In this document: positions 3,551 to 29,060 of the stretch, piece after piece
Numbering within the stretch: position 1 is the stretch's first letter
Layout: each line of letters begins with the position of its first letter
Program-made: the position numbers and the translations under genes
From: Elainella saxicola E1
GTDB lineage: Bacteria; Cyanobacteriota; Cyanobacteriia; Elainellales; Elainellaceae
Length of the DNA stretch: 43,988 nucleotides
Direction of reading: 5' to 3'
Assembly: GCA_002796835.1 (NCBI GenBank)
Contig: LUGL01000009.1
Coordinates: 2,483-46,470 of the forward strand
The notes under the pieces: generated by a model
Seen by the model: the letters and a program-made list of their open reading frames with translations, nothing else
What the model was told of the DNA's origin: nothing
Database searches by the model: none

Positions 3551-3907
3551 TCAAGAATCAGCGTTTAGAACAGCCGCACAGTAACTGAGGAGCAGATTCA
3601 AGCGATCGGCAATTTGTTGTTTTCGCTGATGGGTAGTACCAGGTTGACGAGCTGCCTGTAGGAATAGAATGTCGGTATCGAGTAGCCGCAATTGTTTATT
3701 CATTTCAGTTTGGATCGCTTGGATTGGGTTCGCTTCATCTCCCATCGGGGTTTCTGTTACGACCTGCGTTTGAAAAACCTGCTGAAGATGAGTGATAGCT
3801 GCCTTCAGGTCAGCAACCGTCAAAGATTGATCCGCAAGGGTTGCCTGTATCTGGTGCAGAAGTTGCTCAAACTGTTGATAGATTCGATGGTGACTTTCAG
3901 ATGGCAT
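3551..3907 (-). CDS. patD: PatD-like heterocyst frequency control protein
   Basis: A 118-residue, mainly alpha-helical cytoplasmic protein with no membrane segment. It contains YQQFEQLLHQIQ near the start, a central LQQVFQTQV, and a conserved-looking C-terminal part (NKQLRLLDTDILFLQAARQ, then QIADRLNLLLSYC). These match my recollection of the PatD family, which in Anabaena limits heterocyst frequency and has been linked to FtsZ. In strains without heterocysts the role is unclear. A weak AAAGG precedes the ATG. The gene is divergent from the (p)ppGpp synthetase gene and heads the patD-psbX-ycf66 group. The call comes from remembered family sequence, so a profile search is needed to secure it. 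Confidence 0.62.
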   Translation of the reverse strand: MPSESHHRIYQQFEQLLHQIQATLADQSLTVADLKAAITHLQQVFQTQVVTETPMGDEANPIQAIQTEMNKQLRLLDTDILFLQAARQPGTTHQRKQQIADRLNLLLSYCAAVLNADS

Positions 3908-4358
3908 TGTTAAGGGCCTTTTTAGATGGCATGGATTGAAAAGTTGTTTGAAAAGTTGCGTTTATGGGGCGATCGGTTTGGGTTAAAGTAGTGTTAAGAA
4001 CTTTAATGTATTTTTTGCAAATCCTTGTAGCCTCAGACAAGCTATCATTAAGTTTTTTATAGCGCCTCTCTGCTTCCCTTGCTCTTTCCCCAGGATTTCT
4101 GAAGTGCCCCCAATCTCATCAGAGATTGATCAAACGTCCGAGTTTTGCAGATTTGAGTGATCGAACAGGGAACCGGATTTTATCTATTTTCAGATGAATT
4201 AATTTTTATAAACGTCAGGGATTAAGGAAGGCTTTGGGATCAAGCGCTATCCCGATATCCGATCAATCCCTTAAAATCAGCACACCTCAACTTCGCAAGT
4301 CTTGAACTTGATTGAATTGAGTTCAGCATTCTGTCTTTTCCCTACAGGCTTGACAGCA
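3908..4358. promoter_or_regulatory. Divergent promoter region of patD and the RelA/SpoT gene
   Basis: A 451-bp AT-rich region between two divergent starts. It must contain promoters for both directions, but I found no unmistakable operator or RNA element. Confidence 0.35.
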
Positions 4359-6647
4359 ATGAACGTAGCAACCGCAACCGTAACCGACATCGCAGCTCTA
4401 CCAACCGACATCGACATTCCTGAGTGGCTGAAATCTTGCCTTTTGGAACATCGATTGCCAGTTGACGAAAGCGGCGAGACTGCCACATCCGAAGCAGCTC
4501 TGATCTGTGACGCCTTTAACTTTGCCTATCAGTTGCATGAAGGACAACGACGGGCATCTGGGGAGCCTTATATTGCTCATCCCGTTGCCGTTGCAGGATT
4601 GCTGAAGGATTTAGGCGGCAGTGCAGCCATGATTGCCGCTGGCTTTCTGCATGACGTGATTGAAGATACAGATGTTACGGCTGAAGAAATTGAGCAGCGA
4701 TTTGGGCCTGAAGTCCGGCGGTTGGTGGAAGGAGTGACTAAGCTTTCTAAGTTTAATTTCTCCAGTAAAACAGAACGCTTGGCCGAGAATTTCCGCCGGA
4801 TGTTCTTGGCGATGGCTCAAGACATTCGAGTGATTGTGGTAAAGTTGGCCGATCGCCTCCACAATATGCGAACCCTAGAGCATTTGGCTGACGAGAAACG
4901 CCGCCGCATTGCGCTGGAAACACGAGAAATCTTTGCACCTTTGGCGAATCGTCTGGGGATCGGTCGCTTTAAGTGGGAACTCGAAGACCTGTCCTTTAAA
5001 TATCTAGAGCCTGAAGCCTATCAACACATTCGTCAGTTAATTGCCGATAAAAGGATCGATCGCGAAGCGCGGCTGACCCATGTTGGGGTGACGCTGCGGG
5101 AACGCCTCGATCAGTTAGGGATCCGCTGCTATGACATTAGCGGTCGGCCTAAGCATCTCTACGGCATTTATCAAAAAATGCAGCGGCAGCAGAAAAGCTT
5201 CGAAGAAATTTATGACATTGCCGCTGTGCGGATCATTGTTGAAACGAACGATGAGTGTTACCGCGCTTTAGCAGTGGTTCATGATGCCTTTCGCCCCATT
5301 CCTGGCCGCTTTAAAGACTATATTGGGTTACCCAAACCCAACCGCTACCAATCTCTGCATACGGTCGTCATTGGCAATACAGGCCGACCGATCGAAGTCC
5401 AGATCCGCACAATGGAAATGCATCATGTCGCGGAATATGGAATTGCAGCCCACTGGAAGTATAAGGAAGTGGGTCATAGTGCTTCTAAGCTGACCGCAGA
5501 TGATGAGAAGTTTACCTGGCTGCGGCAGCTCCTGGATTGGCAAAGTGATCTGAAAGATGCCCAGGAGTATTTAGAAAGCGTCAAAGGCAACTTGTTTGAC
5601 GATGATGTCTATGTGTTCACGCCCAACGGAGATGTGATCGCCCTAGCTCAGGGTGCAACCTCGATCGATTTTGCCTATCGTATTCACACGGAAGTGGGTA
5701 ACCATTGCGCGGGAGCTAAGGTCAACGATCGAATGGTTACACTAGACACGCCGCTGAAGAATGGCGACATCGTTGAAATTATTACGCAAAAGAACTCCCA
5801 CCCCAGTTTAGATTGGCTGAACTTCACGGTAACGCCAAGCGCTAAAAACCGCATTCGCCAGTGGTATAAGCGATCGCATCGAGATGCCAATATTCAGCGC
5901 GGTCGCGAAATGTTGGAGAAAGAATTGGGCAAACGCGGTTTTGAAGCTTTGCTCAAGTCGGATCCCATGCAGGCCACTGCTGAGCGATGTAACTACCAGA
6001 CTCCTGAAGATTTGCTAGCTGCAATCGGCTATGGCGAAGTTACGCTCAATCTGGCCTTGAATCGTCTACGGGAAGCAATTAAGGCTCGTCAGCCTATTAC
6101 ACCAGTTGCTAAGGAAGAGGTAACCAAAACGCTGCTGCATCCGGCCTCTAGTGCAGTCCCTCCAAGTAGTCCTCGCCCCGCTAAATCTTCTCCGATCGTC
6201 GGGGTTGAGGGTTTGCTCTATGGTCTGGCTGGCTGTTGTAATCCCGTTCCTGGAGAATCGATTATCGGGGTTGTCACCTTAGGCAGCAGTCGCGGTATTT
6301 CGATCCATCGTCAGGGATGCAGCAATGTAGAGTCTGTTCCTGGAGAACGGCTGATCCCGGTGAGTTGGAATACCGCCGACACAGCAACGCGTCCACAAAC
6401 CTATCCAGTGCAGATTTTGATCGAAGTGATCGATCGGGTGGGTGTCTTGAAAGATATTCTGTCCCGCTTAAGCGATTACAACATCAATGTGCGAAGTGCC
6501 CAAGTCAAAACCTTTCCTGGTCAAACGGCAGTCATTGAACTGGGGATTGACATTGTCGATCATGAGCAGCTAGAACGCATCTTTACCCAAATTCGTAAGA
6601 TGACGGATGTGCTCAACCTGCGCCGAATGAGCCAGGCAGAAGAGTAA
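4359..6647 (+). CDS. relA/spoT: Bifunctional (p)ppGpp synthetase/hydrolase (RSH)
   Basis: A 762-residue long RelA/SpoT homologue that makes and degrades the stringent-response alarmone (p)ppGpp in the cytoplasm. Domains in order: HD hydrolase (about 45-200, with His98-Asp99 and the following ED pair in FLHDVIEDT), the RelA/SpoT nucleotidyltransferase (about 255-375, with RFKDYIGLPKPNRYQSLHT and YGIAAHWKYK), TGS (about 415-478), a Cys-containing conserved region (GLAGCCNPVPGE, 622-633) and a C-terminal ACT domain (about 682-757). Both active sites look intact, so both activities are likely. The frame extends to a TTG 57 nt upstream, but I chose the ATG because it matches the usual N-terminus and the extra residues look noncoding. 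It is convergent with the HpsJ-like gene. Confidence 0.93.
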   Translation: MNVATATVTDIAALPTDIDIPEWLKSCLLEHRLPVDESGETATSEAALICDAFNFAYQLHEGQRRASGEPYIAHPVAVAGLLKDLGGSAAMIAAGFLHDVIEDTDVTAEEIEQRFGPEVRRLVEGVTKLSKFNFSSKTERLAENFRRMFLAMAQDIRVIVVKLADRLHNMRTLEHLADEKRRRIALETREIFAPLANRLGIGRFKWELEDLSFKYLEPEAYQHIRQLIADKRIDREARLTHVGVTLRERLDQLGIRCYDISGRPKHLYGIYQKMQRQQKSFEEIYDIAAVRIIVETNDECYRALAVVHDAFRPIPGRFKDYIGLPKPNRYQSLHTVVIGNTGRPIEVQIRTMEMHHVAEYGIAAHWKYKEVGHSASKLTADDEKFTWLRQLLDWQSDLKDAQEYLESVKGNLFDDDVYVFTPNGDVIALAQGATSIDFAYRIHTEVGNHCAGAKVNDRMVTLDTPLKNGDIVEIITQKNSHPSLDWLNFTVTPSAKNRIRQWYKRSHRDANIQRGREMLEKELGKRGFEALLKSDPMQATAERCNYQTPEDLLAAIGYGEVTLNLALNRLREAIKARQPITPVAKEEVTKTLLHPASSAVPPSSPRPAKSSPIVGVEGLLYGLAGCCNPVPGESIIGVVTLGSSRGISIHRQGCSNVESVPGERLIPVSWNTADTATRPQTYPVQILIEVIDRVGVLKDILSRLSDYNINVRSAQVKTFPGQTAVIELGIDIVDHEQLERIFTQIRKMTDVLNLRRMSQAEE

Positions 6648-16123: not shown

Positions 16124-17329
16124 TTATAGTTCTGCCAGGTCACGATTTGGCAAACTGGAAACAGGCTCAAACTCGTTGATTTGCTGTTCCATCTGTAAGG
16201 GTAGAGAAACAGTAACGGTTGTTCCTTTCCCTTCTTGGCTTTCAAAATAGATTTGGCCTTGATGGGTGTCGATGCAGCGTTTTACGACTGCCAGTCCTAA
16301 ACCTGTTCCTTGAATCTGACCAACGTTGCTACAGCGGTAGAAGGTTTTGAACAGGTTGCGTTGACCATCGGCAGGAATACCAATTCCTTCATCCTTAATT
16401 TGGAAAGTAACAAATCGTTCGTTACAGGACAGGTGAAAATCAATCTTTGTATGGCTTGGAGAATATTTGATCGCGTTTGAAAGTAAGTTCGTCAGAATGC
16501 GCCGTAAAAGGACCTGATCGACGCTGACATTATGACAGCAGCCAGCATGGCTAAATGCAATGAGATGTTGATTGTTATCACTCAACTGCAAGGTTTCACA
16601 AATATCCCGACAAAATCTTTCTAACTCAGTGATGGTGGGTTGACAGCTCGTTTTACCGGCTTCAAGGCTGCCAATTAACAGAACTTCATCGAGTAAGTAG
16701 AGCACATGATCGACCGCCGAGTTGACTTTGTCAAAATATCGATCGCGCATTTCACTTGTCAGCGCCTCTCCTCCATACCGCAACAATTCTGTAAACCCCT
16801 GAATACTGGTCAAGGGCGATCGAAAATCATGCGAGATCATGGAAACAAATTCGGATTTGAGCCGATTGAGTTCCTGTTCTTGCTCCAAGGCTTTGAGGGC
16901 GTCTGCCTTTGCTTGCTGCAGTTCTATTTGCATCCGACGCAGCATCAAATGATTTTCGACCCGTGCTAACACTTCTTCAACTTGAAAGGGCTTAGTGATG
17001 TAGTCTACTCCCCCAACCTGAAATGCTTGTACTTTGTCGAGTGGTTCTCCCAGCGCACTCAAGAAAATTACAGGAATATCGCGGGTTTGCTCATCTGCCT
17101 TTAATTGTTGACAAACTTCATAGCCGTTCATCTTCGGCATGTTAATATCCAACAAGATTAGATCCAATGGCACGGTTCGAATCGCCATCAGCGCTACTGA
17201 ACCACTGATCGCACTGCGAACTTCGTACCCTTGTTTGGTCAACATGGACGAGAGTAAGCGCAAGTTGTTAGGGGTGTCATCAACAATCAAAATATTGCCT
17301 TTGACGCCAGTTGGTTGATGCTCGTTCAT
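16124..17329 (-). CDS. REC-HisKA-HATPase histidine kinase
   Basis: A 401-residue soluble kinase with an N-terminal receiver. REC covers about 11-130 (IDD-type acidic pocket VDD, phosphoacceptor Asp61, Lys in ITKPF). A coiled-coil linker (about 130-160) precedes the dimerisation domain with the phospho-His in MISHDFRSPLTS (His167). The ATPase domain (about 270-385) has LLSNAIKYSP (N box), DEGIGIP (G1) and GTGLGLAVVKRC (G2). No membrane segment is present, so input probably comes by phosphorylation of its receiver. Its ATG overlaps the stop of the 1696-residue kinase by 4 nt (ATGA), which implies translational coupling and joint function. Confidence 0.93.
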   Translation of the reverse strand: MNEHQPTGVKGNILIVDDTPNNLRLLSSMLTKQGYEVRSAISGSVALMAIRTVPLDLILLDINMPKMNGYEVCQQLKADEQTRDIPVIFLSALGEPLDKVQAFQVGGVDYITKPFQVEEVLARVENHLMLRRMQIELQQAKADALKALEQEQELNRLKSEFVSMISHDFRSPLTSIQGFTELLRYGGEALTSEMRDRYFDKVNSAVDHVLYLLDEVLLIGSLEAGKTSCQPTITELERFCRDICETLQLSDNNQHLIAFSHAGCCHNVSVDQVLLRRILTNLLSNAIKYSPSHTKIDFHLSCNERFVTFQIKDEGIGIPADGQRNLFKTFYRCSNVGQIQGTGLGLAVVKRCIDTHQGQIYFESQEGKGTTVTVSLPLQMEQQINEFEPVSSLPNRDLAEL

Positions 17330-20300
17330 TGCATGTGGAACTTGGCTAATTCAATAATGTCTTCAAAGCGAAAGTCATAAACCAATTCTTCTAAGCTTTC
17401 GGCGAGGTTGTGATAAGTCGCAGGGATTTGCTCAAGCAATTGCAGCACTTGACGATCGCTACATCCACTCGCTGCTTGATAGAGTCTAGCAATCCACTCG
17501 GCAGACATAACTGTGAGATCGGCTGGAGCTAGCTTGGGGGGAAGTGAAATGGATTCTTCCTCCCCATATATGCAGTGTAACCCTAGTTGCTCAGCTCGCT
17601 GGGTAAAAATTTCTTCCCTTACCGGAATTTCAAATTCAAATACAGAACCTTCACCCGGGACACTCCGAACTTGTAGCTTACCTCCCATTAACTGGACGAA
17701 TCGATCGCTGATAGCCAACCCAAGTCCTGTCCCCCGATTGGATTGTCGTCCTGATTCCGTTTGGACAAATGCTTCAAACAACGAAGCCATTTCTTCTGGC
17801 GCAATCCCAAATCCAGTATCCTCAACTTCAAAGCGCAACGCGACGACAAAATCTGCATCTTCGTGGGTGCTACACTGAACCCGCAGGTTGACCTGACCCT
17901 TGTCCGTAAATTTAATCGCGTTATCTAACAAATTCAGCAACACTTGACGCAACTTGCCTTGGTCTGCCTTGATCTGTTGGGGGACGTTGTCTGCAATATC
18001 AACTGTTAACTGGAGCTGCTTTTCGGCAGCCGGAATTCGTAACATTTCTCTAAGATTCTCCACCAGCTCACGCAGGTCAAAGCTGTTTTCTTGTAAACTG
18101 GCCCGATCGGCTTCTAATCTTGATATTTCTAGAACTTCGTTAATCAATTCCAGTAGGTGTTGACCACTGTGATCGATGATGTGGAGATATTCCCGATGCT
18201 CTGGATTCAGTTCGGCCTCTTGGTTAATCAGTTGAGTGAAGCCAAGAATGGAATTGAGCGGGGTTCGGAGTTCGTGACTCATGTTAGCGAGAAACTGAGT
18301 TTTCGCCCGATTTGCTGCTTCAGCTTCATCTCTTGCCTTCTTCAAATCCTCAGACTGTTGTTGAGTTTGAATTAACAGGTCAGCTTGCTGGATGGCTACT
18401 CCTAGCTGGGTACTAATGTGAGTCACTAAATGGATTTCACCAGGTAACCAGTCACGAAAATCAGAATTTTCATAGGCAGCGAGTAATCCCCAAAGACGAT
18501 TCCCCTGAAAAATTGGCACAGTCAAGTAGGCTTTTGTTTGCAGTTTTTCAAGCAATTCTAAGTAGCAGGCAGAAAATTTTTCCTGGTAAATATTGGATAC
18601 ACAAAGATATTTTGCCCCTTGGCTATAAGCGCCGCCTTGCGTTTCCTGGAGATAGGTGTCGTAGACCTGGGCCTCCTGCTCCCACACTTTGACAGTACAG
18701 CGATCGCCGTTAATTGCTTGCGACAAGAACCCAGAATATGTAGGCGTAGGCTCCAATACCGCATTCCATCCTGCTGCGACTGATTCTGCGACACAACAAC
18801 CACTCCAATCAGGGTTGAAGCGATAGAGCAAGACGCGATCGCATTGCAGGAGTTGCCGGAGCTCCTCCGTCGTGGCCCGAAAAATTTGCTCAATTTCTAA
18901 GGTTTGCCGCATGCGTTCAATCACCCGCAATGTCGCCTGTTCTCGTGCGGCACTCTGTCTCAAGGCATCTTCTGCGCTTTTTCGCTCACAGTGTAAAGCG
19001 ATCGCCGATACTGCAGTGTTGAGGAGACTAACATCCAAGGCATCCCACTGATGGGATTGAGCACAACTCTCGAAACCAACAAACCCCCAGAGTTTGCCAT
19101 TTACCATTAACGGTAAGATCAGGATTGATAAAATTCCTTGGGCAGCTAAAAATGCCTGTTCTGATTCAGACAGCTTTTCAACGGCGTCGCCAATGGCTTG
19201 TCCTTCCGTTAAGTATTGCATCCATTGCGCATAGTTTGCTTCTGATAGACATTCGGGTAGAGCGGACTGATGGGCTGGCAACTGGTGGACTAGCAGATGG
19301 CTCTCTGCATTCCAGACGGCTCGTTGAATCAGCGAGGCCTGACTCATTTCGGCACGGGTTTCGTAAAGATACACCCTGGATGCAGCAGCAACCTGTCCCA
19401 ACAGTTGCAAAATCTCGTGATATTGAATTGGCTGCTCTCGGAATGTTAACAGTTCATGCTGGACTTCGACGAGCACCGCCAGAAACCGTTCTCGTTTGGC
19501 TAATGCCTGTTCCACCTGTTTGCGATCGCTAATGTCTCTTGCCACGATCAGGACAGAATCTTCAGATAGCGGCGAAATACTGGAGGACAAGCAGACTTCA
19601 CGATCTTGCTGCTGCAAAGTGTATTCCAAATTCACTGGGGTGCGTAGGGCAAGACTGGTTTGAATGCTCTGCAACACTCGGTTGGCGATCGGAATCGGTA
19701 ATGTTTCGTGGAGTGTTTTACCTAAAATGCTAGCTGCCGGTTTAGACAAGGTTGGGTTCGTTGAGGCGACCTTGAGGCATTGTCCTTTAGCATCCCGCAC
19801 GAGGACCACATCGTTCATGGCGGTGAACAAAGCTCGTAATTCAGCTTCTGCTTGTTTCTGGGCTAAAACACTGCCTAATTGGGCTGCCACAGCAGAAACA
19901 ACCTGAATTAAACGCTGATCTTGTTGCCGTGCCTCAATGGTGAAGAAAACGAGTACAGCAAGCACTGCAGGATGATTCTGGCCACTAACGGAAAGATTGT
20001 CTAGCTGCGTATTGCGATCGCGAGTGACTGTAATGGGGACTCCTAGTCGAGCTTTGATGCCATAGTGATTCACTAACTGGAAGCGATATTGGCTTTGATG
20101 CCCGGTCAAGACGAATGCGGGGCTAGTTTTATCTTCCACATCCAGAGTCCATTCTGGTTGTTGTTGAGCCCAAACCCGTCCAGCAATTCCTTCATGCGGT
20201 TGAAAAGTGACGTTGTGATAGGACTGACGCAAATGCTGCACCGAAGCTAGCACCGCAGGAGATTGCTCAATCCGGTTGCAATACCAAACAGGACTACATT

Positions 20301-22416
20301 CCAAAACACAACCATCGGCAGAAGGTAGCCAAACTTCTCCATAAGTCCAACCTGTTGCTTCACACAATCCCTCTACGGCTGCTTGCAAGGCTTGCGTGAA
20401 ATCAGGCGCTGCAGTAATTGCTTGAGTGATATCGAGCAAGAGCTGAACTTCTTCTTCAGCCTGGTGTTGTTTTGCATTCACCTGATGGACGCTAATAAAC
20501 TTTCCAATACTTTGAGCCATCAGCTCAATAATCTCTTGCTCGTGGTTTTGATATCCCTGCAAGCGGGGTCGGTCGGCAAAGAAACAGAGTGTTCCATAAA
20601 TTTCACCGTCTACCCAAATTGGAGTGCCTATGTAGGAGTTGACCTGGAGATTGGGCAAGCAGGATTGGAGGAATGTTTTATCTAAAAAGTCAGTGTGCTG
20701 ATAGCCCATTGTTTGCTGGGTTTGGACCACAGCTTGACAATAAGTATTTTGCAAACTGGCTTCGATGCCAGACAGCAGGCAGGAGCCATTAAAATATCCT
20801 GTTAAAACTCGATAAGACAATCCCTCAATACGACTGATAATGCCAGAGGAGAATCCCAAGATTTCACAACCTGTCTTGAGATAATCTGTACAGAGTTCTT
20901 CGATCGTCTCAAAATCAGTCAAGCCCAACCGATGGAGCTGCTTGAGATTGTTGCTGAACTCACTCAAAGCCAGTGATTTATTCAACAGTTCTGCTTCTGC
21001 TTGTTTGCGAGCAGTAATGTCCCGTGCGACCCAAATGACGGTATCATTGCCGCTTGGAGAAATCTTGGCGCTAAACCAAACAATTCGTTTGTCGATCAAC
21101 AGGTCATATTCACACTCAACCGATTGCCGAGAATCTAAACTAGCTTGGATGTAGCTCAGAAACTGATCGGCTTGATCGATCGGAAAAATCTCATGCAGCG
21201 TTTTTCCAAGTAAACATTCTGGCGGCATGTAGAAGTTATTGTGGTTTGTCGGCGCAATTTTGAGATATTTGCCCTTGTGATCCAACACCAGAATGACATC
21301 CGACATCGCAGCAAACAGATCTCTTAGTTCTGTTTCAGAGTCTTGTAATGCCGCTTCAATCTGACGTCGTTCACAAATTTCCTGGCGTAAGATCAAATTT
21401 TGATATTCTAGAGCCTCTAGTTGTTTTTGCTCTTGATCGATAGACTTTGCTTGGGCCAAAGCAATTCCCAATTGATCTGCGATTGCTTCTAATAATGCAA
21501 TTTCTTCAGAGGTCCAAATGCGTTGGCGATCGCATTGTTGTAGCATCAGTACCCCATTAGCCTGATTATGATAAGCCGTCCGAACTGCCACCAACGACTG
21601 CATATGGGTTAGATGACACAGGCTCTGAATGGATGCCAGTCGATCGTCTTGATAAACATTAATAGAGACTAATGCTCGGTCTTGAGATAACACCTCAGGG
21701 ATAAATAAGTTATCTTCTAATGCAAAGTCAAGTTGCCGCATGGATACACAACTAGGCACCGTATATTCCGCAATCAGTGGAATCTCAGGAATTGGAGGGG
21801 GTACATAAATATGAAGTGAGCATCGACTAACCTGCAAGACCTGCCCAATCTGCTTAACTACGGTTTCAAAAATAGATTGACCATCGAGCTGTGAGCAAAT
21901 TAATTCGGTAATTTGCTGGATTAATAGCGTTCTTTGAAACTGTTGTTCTAGTAATTGTTCAGCTTGTTCTCGCTGACAAACTGCTTGCTGTAGACGAAGA
22001 TTCTGTTCAATTAACTGTTTCTGTAACCGCTGAATATTGAGCTGATTCTCGATTCTTGCAACGACCTCTTCCGAGTGGAAAGGTTTTGTGATGTAATCAG
22101 CCCCCCCAGCGCTAAAAGCTTTTACTTTATCTAGGGCATCTCCTAAAGCACTAATAAAGATAACTGGAATATTGCGAGTGCGATTATCAGCTTTGAGAAT
22201 TTGGCAAACTTCGTACCCGTCCCGATCGGGCATTTTGACATCTAGCAGAATCAAATCTGGTAATTTCGCCTGAATTGTCTTTAAGGCAAAATTGACGCTA
22301 GGGGAAAACCGCACTTGATAACCCTTGCCAGCCAAAAGCCGCGCCAACAAACGAAGATTGGCTGGAGTATCATCAATAACCAAGATACTTTCTTTCGGAG
22401 TCAGGATTTGTTGCAT
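17326..22416 (-). CDS. Giant multi-GAF/PAS histidine kinase with N-terminal receiver
   Basis: A 1696-residue cytoplasmic sensor kinase. Order: REC (8-125, Asp59), coiled coil, GAF1 (about 165-325), PAS1 (357-470), GAF2 (500-640), GAF3 (665-845), PAS2 (855-970), GAF4 (985-1150), GAF5 (1165-1345), HisKA with MSHELRTPLNS (His1381), HATPase (about 1483-1600; LLDNAIKFT, DTGFGIAP, GTGLGLAIS), and a tail of about 90 residues. GAF5 resembles bilin-binding phytochrome/cyanobacteriochrome GAF domains; the usual Cys is kept (Cys1284) but is followed by Tyr rather than His, so bilin binding is uncertain. PAS and GAF domains usually bind small molecules or sense light or redox state. It is the first gene of a two-gene operon with the 401-residue kinase. 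Confidence 0.92.
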   Translation of the reverse strand: MQQILTPKESILVIDDTPANLRLLARLLAGKGYQVRFSPSVNFALKTIQAKLPDLILLDVKMPDRDGYEVCQILKADNRTRNIPVIFISALGDALDKVKAFSAGGADYITKPFHSEEVVARIENQLNIQRLQKQLIEQNLRLQQAVCQREQAEQLLEQQFQRTLLIQQITELICSQLDGQSIFETVVKQIGQVLQVSRCSLHIYVPPPIPEIPLIAEYTVPSCVSMRQLDFALEDNLFIPEVLSQDRALVSINVYQDDRLASIQSLCHLTHMQSLVAVRTAYHNQANGVLMLQQCDRQRIWTSEEIALLEAIADQLGIALAQAKSIDQEQKQLEALEYQNLILRQEICERRQIEAALQDSETELRDLFAAMSDVILVLDHKGKYLKIAPTNHNNFYMPPECLLGKTLHEIFPIDQADQFLSYIQASLDSRQSVECEYDLLIDKRIVWFSAKISPSGNDTVIWVARDITARKQAEAELLNKSLALSEFSNNLKQLHRLGLTDFETIEELCTDYLKTGCEILGFSSGIISRIEGLSYRVLTGYFNGSCLLSGIEASLQNTYCQAVVQTQQTMGYQHTDFLDKTFLQSCLPNLQVNSYIGTPIWVDGEIYGTLCFFADRPRLQGYQNHEQEIIELMAQSIGKFISVHQVNAKQHQAEEEVQLLLDITQAITAAPDFTQALQAAVEGLCEATGWTYGEVWLPSADGCVLECSPVWYCNRIEQSPAVLASVQHLRQSYHNVTFQPHEGIAGRVWAQQQPEWTLDVEDKTSPAFVLTGHQSQYRFQLVNHYGIKARLGVPITVTRDRNTQLDNLSVSGQNHPAVLAVLVFFTIEARQQDQRLIQVVSAVAAQLGSVLAQKQAEAELRALFTAMNDVVLVRDAKGQCLKVASTNPTLSKPAASILGKTLHETLPIPIANRVLQSIQTSLALRTPVNLEYTLQQQDREVCLSSSISPLSEDSVLIVARDISDRKQVEQALAKRERFLAVLVEVQHELLTFREQPIQYHEILQLLGQVAAASRVYLYETRAEMSQASLIQRAVWNAESHLLVHQLPAHQSALPECLSEANYAQWMQYLTEGQAIGDAVEKLSESEQAFLAAQGILSILILPLMVNGKLWGFVGFESCAQSHQWDALDVSLLNTAVSAIALHCERKSAEDALRQSAAREQATLRVIERMRQTLEIEQIFRATTEELRQLLQCDRVLLYRFNPDWSGCCVAESVAAGWNAVLEPTPTYSGFLSQAINGDRCTVKVWEQEAQVYDTYLQETQGGAYSQGAKYLCVSNIYQEKFSACYLELLEKLQTKAYLTVPIFQGNRLWGLLAAYENSDFRDWLPGEIHLVTHISTQLGVAIQQADLLIQTQQQSEDLKKARDEAEAANRAKTQFLANMSHELRTPLNSILGFTQLINQEAELNPEHREYLHIIDHSGQHLLELINEVLEISRLEADRASLQENSFDLRELVENLREMLRIPAAEKQLQLTVDIADNVPQQIKADQGKLRQVLLNLLDNAIKFTDKGQVNLRVQCSTHEDADFVVALRFEVEDTGFGIAPEEMASLFEAFVQTESGRQSNRGTGLGLAISDRFVQLMGGKLQVRSVPGEGSVFEFEIPVREEIFTQRAEQLGLHCIYGEEESISLPPKLAPADLTVMSAEWIARLYQAASGCSDRQVLQLLEQIPATYHNLAESLEELVYDFRFEDIIELAKFHMQ

Positions 22417-22924: not shown

Positions 22925-23992
22925 TCATGACTGTAATGACAAGCTACAAATGAGGGAAGGGACGGTATCACTATCCATAGGTTTTGCAAAAAAGTAGCCC
23001 TGTCCTCGATGACAACCCAAAGCTTGCAGCTTCATTGCCTGCTCTTCAGTTTCAACCCCTTCAGCAATTACATCAATCCCTAAGTTTTGAGCTAAATTGG
23101 CGATCGCCCTCACTAAGTATTCTCCCCGTTTTGAGCAGAGTTGCTGAACGAAGGATCGATCGATCTTTAAGACATCTAGCGGCAGTTCAAGTAAGCGACT
23201 CAAAGAAGAGTAGCCTGTGCCAAAATCATCGATATAAAGCTGAACGCCCAAAACCCGGAGTTGATTCAGAACCAGCTCAATAATCTCTGTATTGCTCATA
23301 ATCGAGCTTTCGGTAATTTCTAGCTTAAGACTTTGAGCAGGTAAACCCGTGTCATTTAAAATCTTTTCAATTTGCTGAGGGAGGTCAGGACAGACGATTT
23401 GTTGACAAGAAAGATTAACACTCACTGTGAGTGAATTGAAATAATCAGGAAACTGCTGTTGCCAAGATTGCAATTGATAGCAGGCCTCACGAATCACCCA
23501 AGCCCCAATATCAATAATCGATCCGGTTTCTTCAGCGATTGGAATAAATTGAGTTGGGGAAATCATTCCTAGCGTTGGATGGTGCCAGCGGGATAAAACC
23601 TCAAATCCTGTAATACTTCCGTTTCCCAAAGAGACAATTGGCTGATACTGCAAGCGCAATTGATGGTTGGCCAACGCCATCTGCAAGTCTCTTTCCATGC
23701 GGAGACGGGCTAATTCTTCTGATGAAAGGAGGCTGATGACGCCCTCAGATTCTTGCTCAATTGCTGTTGTGAGCCGCATTAATCGATCGACGTTAGACGC
23801 AGCGATCTTCACCATGCGCTGCCCTCTATCAGATAGCTCTCCTAACCGCCCACTATCTAATAAATCAAGCGCTCCTTGAATCACCGTTAACGGGGTACGG
23901 AGTTCATGACTGATATCGAGTGTTGTTTCATAGGGGGAGACAGCATAGAAGGAGTCGGAAGCCTTCTGGTAGTCAAACTTACTAGTCGTCAT
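22925..23992 (-). CDS. Histidine-kinase dimerisation domain fused to an EAL phosphodiesterase
   Basis: A 355-residue protein of unusual make-up. Residues about 20-85 form a HisKA dimerisation domain with an intact phospho-His motif, ISHELRTPLTV (His29). No ATPase domain follows. Residues about 100-350 are an EAL domain, which cuts cyclic di-GMP to pGpG. Catalytic features are present: Glu131 in the E-V-L signature, Asn193 in SVNLS, Glu225 in LEITES, Asp255-Asp256 in IDDFGTGYSSL, Lys276 in LKIDRSF and Glu311 in AEGVE. The stub could not phosphorylate itself but could dimerise or be phosphorylated in trans, and so control the phosphodiesterase. No membrane segment is present. It follows the CheY-like receiver gene on the same strand (231-bp gap). 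Confidence 0.9.
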   Translation of the reverse strand: MTTSKFDYQKASDSFYAVSPYETTLDISHELRTPLTVIQGALDLLDSGRLGELSDRGQRMVKIAASNVDRLMRLTTAIEQESEGVISLLSSEELARLRMERDLQMALANHQLRLQYQPIVSLGNGSITGFEVLSRWHHPTLGMISPTQFIPIAEETGSIIDIGAWVIREACYQLQSWQQQFPDYFNSLTVSVNLSCQQIVCPDLPQQIEKILNDTGLPAQSLKLEITESSIMSNTEIIELVLNQLRVLGVQLYIDDFGTGYSSLSRLLELPLDVLKIDRSFVQQLCSKRGEYLVRAIANLAQNLGIDVIAEGVETEEQAMKLQALGCHRGQGYFFAKPMDSDTVPSLICSLSLQS

Positions 23993-24223: not shown

Positions 24224-24604
24224 TTAAGAATTCCAGCCTAAAACCTCAAGCAGCTGATGAGCCAACTTTGCAGGCTTGAAAGGTTTTGCGATCATTGCCT
24301 TGACGCCCAACTCAGCAAAACGCCGCTGATCAGACATTTGTACTTTTGCTGTTAGTAAAATCACAGGGATATGTTTAGTGGCAGGGTTGGCTTGGAGATG
24401 TTGAAAGACTGTTAGGCCATCCATATCAGGTAACATGACATCCAGTAAGATGGCGTCAGGCTGCTCTTCTTCAGCTTTATGCAGACCTTCTTGACTGGAG
24501 CAAGCAACAATGACCTCTAACCCCGCCATAATTTCGAGACTGGCTTGAGCGACCTCCCGGATGTCATCTTCATCATCAATGACTAGAACAAGTTTTCCTG
24601 TCAC
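24224..24604 (-). CDS. CheY-like single-domain response regulator
   Basis: A 126-residue receiver domain with nothing else attached. The acidic pocket (IDDEDD), phosphoacceptor Asp55 in LLDVMLPD, Thr in LLTAK and Lys in IAKPF are all present, so it should accept phosphate. The start is GTG, chosen because a strong GGAGGTGAT ribosome site sits 6-7 nt upstream; the ATG three bases earlier is out of frame. The site lies only about 20 nt after the stop of the decayed kinase, so this was once the second gene of a kinase-receiver operon. It now needs another kinase as phosphate source. Confidence 0.92.
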   Translation of the reverse strand: MTGKLVLVIDDEDDIREVAQASLEIMAGLEVIVACSSQEGLHKAEEEQPDAILLDVMLPDMDGLTVFQHLQANPATKHIPVILLTAKVQMSDQRRFAELGVKAMIAKPFKPAKLAHQLLEVLGWNS

Positions 24605-24632: not shown

Positions 24633-25175
24633 CTAGTATTCCCTGATACGCTGGGAACAGCAACGCACTGAAATGGTAGCGCCAGGGAACAAGGTGCTTC
24701 CTTGGCCTAAGACGCTTTCTTCCCATAACCTACCTTGATATTGCTGAATAATGCTACGGCAGATTACCAAACCCATTCCAGCCCCCTAATGGGAACAGGC
24801 GTCAGAAGCATCAGCTTGTTGAAACTGCTCAAAAATTGATTCTAGCTTATTAGGAGGGATTCCTTATCCAGTATCTTTCACATCAAATTAAAACATGGGA
24901 GCATTGCAGCTTCCCAAACGGCCTCGTTCCATTGTCATATTGTTCGATTTCTACCCTGATCTGCTCACCCAGTGGCGAGAATTAAATCACATTCATTGCT
25001 AAATGGTGGAGAACTTGACGAATTTGAGATGGATCGAGATGAGCAAGATACTACTTGTTAGTTGAACCAGGCGATCGATATTACTTGCTGCAATTTCTAA
25101 CATGCGCTGACTGCGATTGGATAGATTACCTTCCTGAAACTCTCGATCGTAGCAATAAGATGTTTTAAATGTTTT
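24633..25175 (-). pseudogene. Decayed histidine kinase (HisKA-HATPase remnant)
   Basis: Translation of the minus strand gives broken but clear histidine-kinase sequence. A dimerisation-domain end (LSNRSQRMLEIAASNIDRL) lies near 25080-25140, an N-box-like QIRQVLHHLAMN follows, then KDTG-stop-GIPPNKLESIFEQFQQADASD, then stop-GAGMGLVICRSIIQQYQGRLW, then VLGQGSTLFPGAT. In-frame stops occur at about 24984, 24866 and 24788, the last two inside the G1 and before the G2 ATP-binding boxes, and at least one frame change is needed. It therefore cannot make a working kinase. The remnant dimerisation segment resembles that of the EAL fusion protein nearby. Confidence 0.85.

Positions 25176-29060
<3,885 letters not shown>

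Follow-up and report, generated by a model that had tools for sequence, protein, structure and literature searches.

In Elainella saxicola E1, a gene coding for a HisKA-EAL protein is placed in a conserved phosphorelay cluster, an arrangement newly noted here, and the most consistent neighbor of such genes is a stand-alone receiver (REC) gene, which was absent from the initial annotation of this DNA. The window (the whole stretch of 43,988 nucleotides that was analyzed) holds the features collected in Table 1. Judged by its sequence, the HisKA-EAL protein would be an EAL phosphodiesterase and neither a histidine kinase, as it has no HATPase domain, nor a REC-EAL regulator, as the receiver is not fused to it. 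Domain content, conservation, and the phosphorelay cluster are the parts of the argument that are read directly from the DNA.

Table 1. Coordinates of the HisKA-EAL gene, its parts, and the neighboring signaling genes in the window
Feature	Position	Strand	Basis
HisKA-EAL protein, 355 aa, ATG start	22925..23992	-	ORF, Pfam
DHp (HisKA) hairpin, residues 20-80, two helices (20-47 and 55-80)	23753..23935	-	Pfam, AlphaFold2, conservation
Codon of His29 (phospho-acceptor; H-box SHELRTPLT)	23906..23908	-	Sequence, alignment
Linker, residues 81-99, fixed length, variable sequence	23696..23752	-	Alignment
EAL phosphodiesterase domain (predicted), residues 100-338, intact catalytic residues	22979..23695	-	Pfam, alignment, structure match
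Stand-alone REC protein, 126 aa, GTG start, next upstream of HisKA-EAL	24224..24604	-	Pfam, alignment
Decayed REC-PAS-HisKA-HATPase kinase gene	24687..25436	-	Comparison with intact 506-aa copy in L001
RcaC-like response regulator, 643 aa, REC - OmpR-type wHTH - Hpt - REC - REC	27129..29060	-	Domain search
REC-GAF/PAS-HisKA-HATPase sensor kinase, 1696 aa, downstream of HisKA-EAL	17326..22416	-	Domain search
REC-HisKA-HATPase kinase, 401 aa, overlaps end of 1696-aa kinase gene	16124..17329	-	Domain search

Domains, conservation, and family of the HisKA-EAL protein

The N-terminal part of the protein matches HisKA (PF00512) at residues 25-77 with an E value of 7e-12 and 45.6 bits (cut-off, 26.9), and His29 lies within an intact H-box. 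Of the elements that define a histidine kinase, the HisKA (DHp) domain and the phospho-acceptor His are therefore present, and HATPase_c was not found in the protein by Pfam, which bears out the initial annotation of a stub with a full phospho-His motif and no ATPase. Pfam likewise detected no REC domain within it, which separates it from REC-EAL proteins of the RocR type. The EAL match (PF00563; residues 100-337; E 1.5e-79) covers the profile nearly in full. The signature motif is EVL, and E131, N193, E225, D255, D256, K276, E311, and Q331 align with crystallized EAL enzymes, in agreement with the earlier statement that the catalytic residues are in place; in the alignment, these residues are kept in 58 to 59 of 59 homologues. 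With a full EAL fold and its catalytic residues, the protein is predicted to be a c-di-GMP phosphodiesterase.

Several other identities were considered and rejected. An inactive EAL receptor does not fit, as all catalytic residues are present. A stop codon stands in frame one codon 5' of the ATG, and therefore a missed N-terminal sensor domain cannot be added. The initial annotation had also allowed for an ATPase domain emerging from a corrected sequence, which would make the gene a frameshifted full kinase; the sole HATPase remnant nearby belongs to a separate dead kinase gene upstream, and none of the homologues carries HATPase. Finally, a chance HisKA match is contradicted by the 57 nonredundant family members, in which EAL was found in 57, HisKA in 56, and HATPase in 0.

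An AlphaFold2 model built with 57 homologues (mean pLDDT, 84.7) consists of a helical hairpin (20-47 and 55-80) and an EAL fold predicted with confidence, joined by a linker of low confidence (81-90). Foldseek matched the model to the known EAL enzymes BifA, PdeA, and MorA, with a TM score of 0.94 between the modeled EAL part and the BifA EAL domain; RocR (3sy8) was also among the structural matches of this part. No solved structure joining a HisKA stub to EAL was found among the PDB profile matches, which span EAL or, weakly, the DHp domain of kinases.

Conservation across the 59 homologues differs between the parts of the protein. Position 29 is H in 53, Y in 4, D in 1, and Q in 1, while Glu30 and Arg32 are kept in 58. 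Mapped onto the EAL tree, substitutions at His29 number 4 (Tyr in two lineages, Asp and Gln in one each), compared with an average of 11.5 per stub (DHp) site; Glu30, Arg32, Leu35, Leu42, Ala64, Arg70, and Leu71 show 0 to 1 changes each. Since His29 changes rarely and yet Tyr, Asp, and Gln variants occur, a phosphorylatable residue at this position seems to be favoured yet dispensable, whereas the remaining stub core, with its nearly invariant sites, appears indispensable. The Tyr, Asp, and Gln lineages keep the rest of the stub, and phosphorylation of His29 therefore cannot explain everything. No part of the protein changes faster than the linker (18.6 changes per site); the spacing from L74 up to E100 is 26 residues in 55 of the 59 homologues and 25 in the other 4, a constancy of length as would be expected of mechanical coupling.

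Full-length HisKA-EAL matches of 330 to 430 aa were listed by the profile search in at least 53 of 388 Cyanobacteriia genomes, a lower bound given that five candidates were scored per genome, and some genomes have two or three copies. Thus, the description of an unusual short form holds for the architecture, an ATPase-less HisKA directly before EAL, but not for its rarity, as the form is recurrent in cyanobacteria. Relatives include proteins of Elainella sp. Prado103 (86%), Pegethrix bostrychoides (80%), Microcoleus sp. FACHB-1515, and Phormidium tenue FACHB-886. Genome G104 has a tandem pair of HisKA-EAL genes (L139, 5884-8129) and a third copy at L138. Beyond cyanobacteria, the two broad-coverage matches (L050 and L053) were GGDEF-EAL proteins, and across 39 phylum-wide genomes, no full-length HisKA-EAL match from outside the class was found among the matches listed. 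No description of a HisKA-EAL family was found in the literature searched, a body of work that most subscription journals lie outside.

In the EAL-domain tree, HisKA-EAL and HisKA-GGDEF-EAL proteins form one clade (support, 0.974), separate from other cyanobacterial EAL domains; the short HisKA-EAL forms alone have a support of 0.79. The stub was probably gained a single time, since these EAL domains form a single clade. All five of the five HisKA-GGDEF-EAL sisters have Tyr in place of the phospho-His. A stubless, EAL-only protein of 290 aa (L084) branches basally to the short HisKA-EAL forms and is perhaps a secondary stub loss.

A conserved phosphorelay neighborhood

Gene neighborhoods were counted at 53 HisKA-EAL loci with at least 3.5 kb on both sides and at 30 usable loci of other EAL genes, drawn mainly from the same cyanobacterial genomes, which superseded a control set of 27 EAL loci of mixed phyla. 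A stand-alone REC gene lies within 6 kb at 39/53 HisKA-EAL loci versus 3/30 controls (P = 1e-8), an RcaC-like wHTH+Hpt regulator at 33/53 versus 0/30 (P = 2e-9), and a histidine kinase at 40/53 versus 10/30 (P = 4e-4); these Fisher P values overstate independence, as the homologues are related and kinship was left uncorrected. A REC-only gene on the same strand, at most 2.5 kb upstream, was found at 31/53 loci versus 2/30 controls, with none so placed at 22/53. The REC gene is typically 90 to 800 bp from HisKA-EAL and does not overlap it. All 35 paired RECs keep the acidic pair (DN in one), the phospho-Asp, and the Thr, and the Lys is kept in all but one truncated frame. A same-strand histidine kinase gene starts at most 2.5 kb downstream of HisKA-EAL at 22 of 58 loci. 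Many types of kinase are found next to HisKA-EAL, while the REC varies much less. When the stub was compared with the kinases of the fetched loci, its best matches included ones from the same kind of cluster; for the stub in the window, the best match was a kinase of the REC-PAS-HisKA-HATPase type, which in L003 is encoded immediately 5' of REC.

RcaC has the domain plan REC-wHTH-Hpt-REC, and the regulators near HisKA-EAL have this plan as well, sometimes with an extra REC or GGDEF domain. RcaC-like regulators are a large multicopy family in these genomes; most copies are away from HisKA-EAL, which therefore goes with a subset of them. The REC neighbor is kept by 3/5 of the Tyr-type HisKA-GGDEF-EAL sisters, and the members with Tyr or Gln that retain it are those at L185, L188, L189, and L178. 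Together with the retention of His29, this conserved cluster of REC, regulator, and kinase genes lends contextual support to the initial suggestion that c-di-GMP breakdown could be set by a phosphorelay.

Other arrangements were observed at some of these loci. A second ATPase-less type, HisKA with REC directly after it (up to about 414 aa), is encoded divergently beside HisKA-EAL in three genomes, with copies at L159 (7413-8654), L163, and L168 (7547-8788); residues 1-178 of the L168 copy are without any Pfam match. An RcaC-like regulator with a C-terminal GGDEF domain was found in L151, L152, L153, L157, L158, L161, and L166, and some of these loci have a PAS-GGDEF gene after HisKA-EAL, which places c-di-GMP synthesis and breakdown next to each other.

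The window, like most of the homologous loci, has the composition of an Rca-type cluster, here with a stand-alone REC, a REC-wHTH-Hpt-REC regulator, and two intact kinases. Its small REC has the acidic pair, phospho-Asp, Thr, and Lys all intact. In the nearest relative, Elainella Prado103 (L001), the order is an RcaC-like regulator, HetR on the other strand, a 506-aa kinase (3673-5193), a 126-aa REC-only protein, HisKA-EAL, and a 1713-aa multisensor kinase. The order in the window is the same, apart from the wrecked homologue of the 506-aa kinase, of which a REC piece (25142-25436), part of the second DHp helix (25044-25130), and the HATPase remnant mentioned above (24687-24899, with stops) survive in different frames, with the PAS domain and H-box missing. 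The REC and HisKA-EAL genes adjoining this dead kinase are both intact. With the REC-adjacent kinase lost, phosphate would therefore need to come from the 401-aa kinase, the 1696-aa kinase, or another one. A scan for the RcaC L-box upstream of HisKA-EAL gave only matches with 3 mismatches, and these were set aside.

A gene for HetR, the heterocyst master regulator (25966-27132, forward strand; Peptidase_S48 plus HetR hood domain), lies on the opposite strand, with the gene for the RcaC-like regulator on one side and those for REC and HisKA-EAL on the other. A HetR homologue also lies opposite the HisKA-EAL strand in L001, L002, L003, and L004, and a link between HetR and the c-di-GMP cluster is worth testing.

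Proposed mechanism and its alternatives

The activity of the enzyme is probably set by a partner protein that docks on the stub. The explanation we favor, at about even odds for the full proposal, is that the stub dimerizes and serves the stand-alone REC both as a landing place and as an acceptor of its phosphoryl group, which would make the EAL enzyme the histidine-input output of an RcaE/RcaF/RcaC-like relay. Receivers bind DHp domains, and a DHp stub on a phosphodiesterase would thus be a natural landing site for a REC. The further steps, which we infer, concern dimerization, docking, phosphotransfer, and the direction of the effect. The sole input module of the enzyme would be a catalytically headless HisKA (DHp), whose hairpin would dimerize into a four-helix bundle and bring two EAL domains side by side. 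The REC encoded just upstream would dock on this bundle as a receiver does on its kinase, the kinases of the cluster would phosphorylate the REC, and Asp-to-His29 exchange would follow in the His-bearing members. The resulting change in the bundle would reach the EAL dimer by way of the linker, whose length is fixed, and c-di-GMP hydrolysis would rise or fall. Two outputs would then compete for one REC, namely the Hpt/wHTH regulator acting on genes and the DHp-EAL enzyme acting on c-di-GMP. In members with Tyr (or Gln) instead of His, the docking part alone would operate; the REC neighbor of the Tyr-type sisters points to docking on the stub that is independent of phosphotransfer.

The kinase genes around HisKA-EAL allow another arrangement, suggested in the initial annotation, in which a neighboring kinase of the same DHp type would pair with the stub in a mixed dimer, and the ATPase of this kinase would phosphorylate His29 in trans and set EAL activity; the 401- and 1696-aa kinases, named there, are candidate partners. 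Kinases within 6 kb or just downstream, the resemblance of the window's stub to a kinase that adjoins REC in L003, and the retention of His29 and the following Glu are all compatible with it. However, DHp domains of different kinases do not usually dimerize with each other, the neighboring kinases are diverse whereas the REC is far less so, the Tyr, Asp, and Gln variants persist, and the window has only a pseudogene of the closest kinase type while the stub and the REC are intact; we consider this arrangement unlikely. The same variants, including the Tyr of the HisKA-GGDEF-EAL sisters, would be easier to understand if the stub were a mere dimerization device for EAL, with the H-box as part of an inherited fold and neither phosphoryl chemistry nor a partner involved. 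EAL enzymes are commonly active as dimers, and E30, R32, A64, R70, and L71 stay despite the loss of His. The low number of changes at His29 relative to the domain mean argues against it, and the REC and RcaC-like neighbors are left unexplained; we find pure dimerization improbable.

A role centered on the REC itself is also conceivable, with the stub acting as a phosphatase or phosphate sink that tunes the relay as well as c-di-GMP. The T33 of the HExxT motif is kept in 52/59 homologues, and the isolated EnvZ DHp domain reportedly has phosphatase activity, but such a role alone does not account for the fusion to EAL through a length-fixed linker, and we deem it very unlikely. The frequency of REC genes near HisKA-EAL relative to the EAL controls speaks for REC docking. 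Against it, the REC could serve only the Hpt regulator and the kinases, with HisKA-EAL as a passive neighbor, and the gap that typically separates the two genes and the 22/53 loci with no same-strand REC at most 2.5 kb upstream also weigh on this side.

Relation to known systems and significance

Two-component effectors normally carry the receiver. RocR and other REC-EAL regulators share with HisKA-EAL the two-component control of an EAL phosphodiesterase, proposed here, but the polarity would be reversed, as the His (DHp) is borne by the enzyme and the receiver is encoded separately. The phosphotransferases Spo0B and ChpT are DHp-type dimers whose acceptor His works between receivers in the absence of kinase activity, much as is proposed here for the stub; in contrast to HisKA-EAL, they retain a degenerate domain of ATPase type and lack an EAL output. 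The cyanobacterial HisKA-GGDEF-EAL proteins (L077, L079, L184, L185, L188, L189, and L191) share the stub, the EAL clade, and similar neighbors, and differ in the GGDEF domain between stub and EAL as well as in the Tyr that replaces the phospho-His. In its mode of action, HisKA-EAL would come closest to an effector whose two-component polarity is reversed. More tentatively, these proteins may form a conserved effector class in which the enzyme bears the DHp input and a separate receiver switches it, with phosphorylation-independent docking in the Tyr and Gln lineages.

In Anabaena PCC 7120, a multistep phosphorelay from HK-REC-Hpt to REC (CdgK/CdgS) sets c-di-GMP (PMC9927289). Phosphorelay control of cyanobacterial c-di-GMP would be common to both cases, but CdgK/CdgS controls a cyclase of the REC-GGDEF type, which carries the receiver itself. 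The Anabaena PDE gene all4897, numbered next to the DGC gene all4896 (PMC13075795), is a candidate for the HisKA-EAL architecture. In the chromatic acclimation of Fremyella diplosiphon, RcaE phosphorylates RcaC via RcaF (PMC8256508), a "four-step phosphorelay" in the words of Kehoe and Grossman 1997 as cited there. The cluster described here has the same kinds of parts, namely a sensor kinase, a small receiver on its own, and a regulator that binds DNA, which in the window has the RcaC plan plus one REC. This likeness is one of domain plan, and the cluster differs in being tied to a HisKA-EAL enzyme and in having no recognized chromatic sensor.

If the proposed mechanism is true, switching through a headless DHp would add histidine-input wiring for second-messenger enzymes, and a single receiver could direct its signal both to genes and to c-di-GMP. 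The variants with His, Tyr, Asp, or Gln that occur in nature are a ready test of the role of the phospho-histidine beyond docking. Furthermore, RcaF/RcaC-like relays, of which these genomes have many copies, would gain a defined c-di-GMP output.
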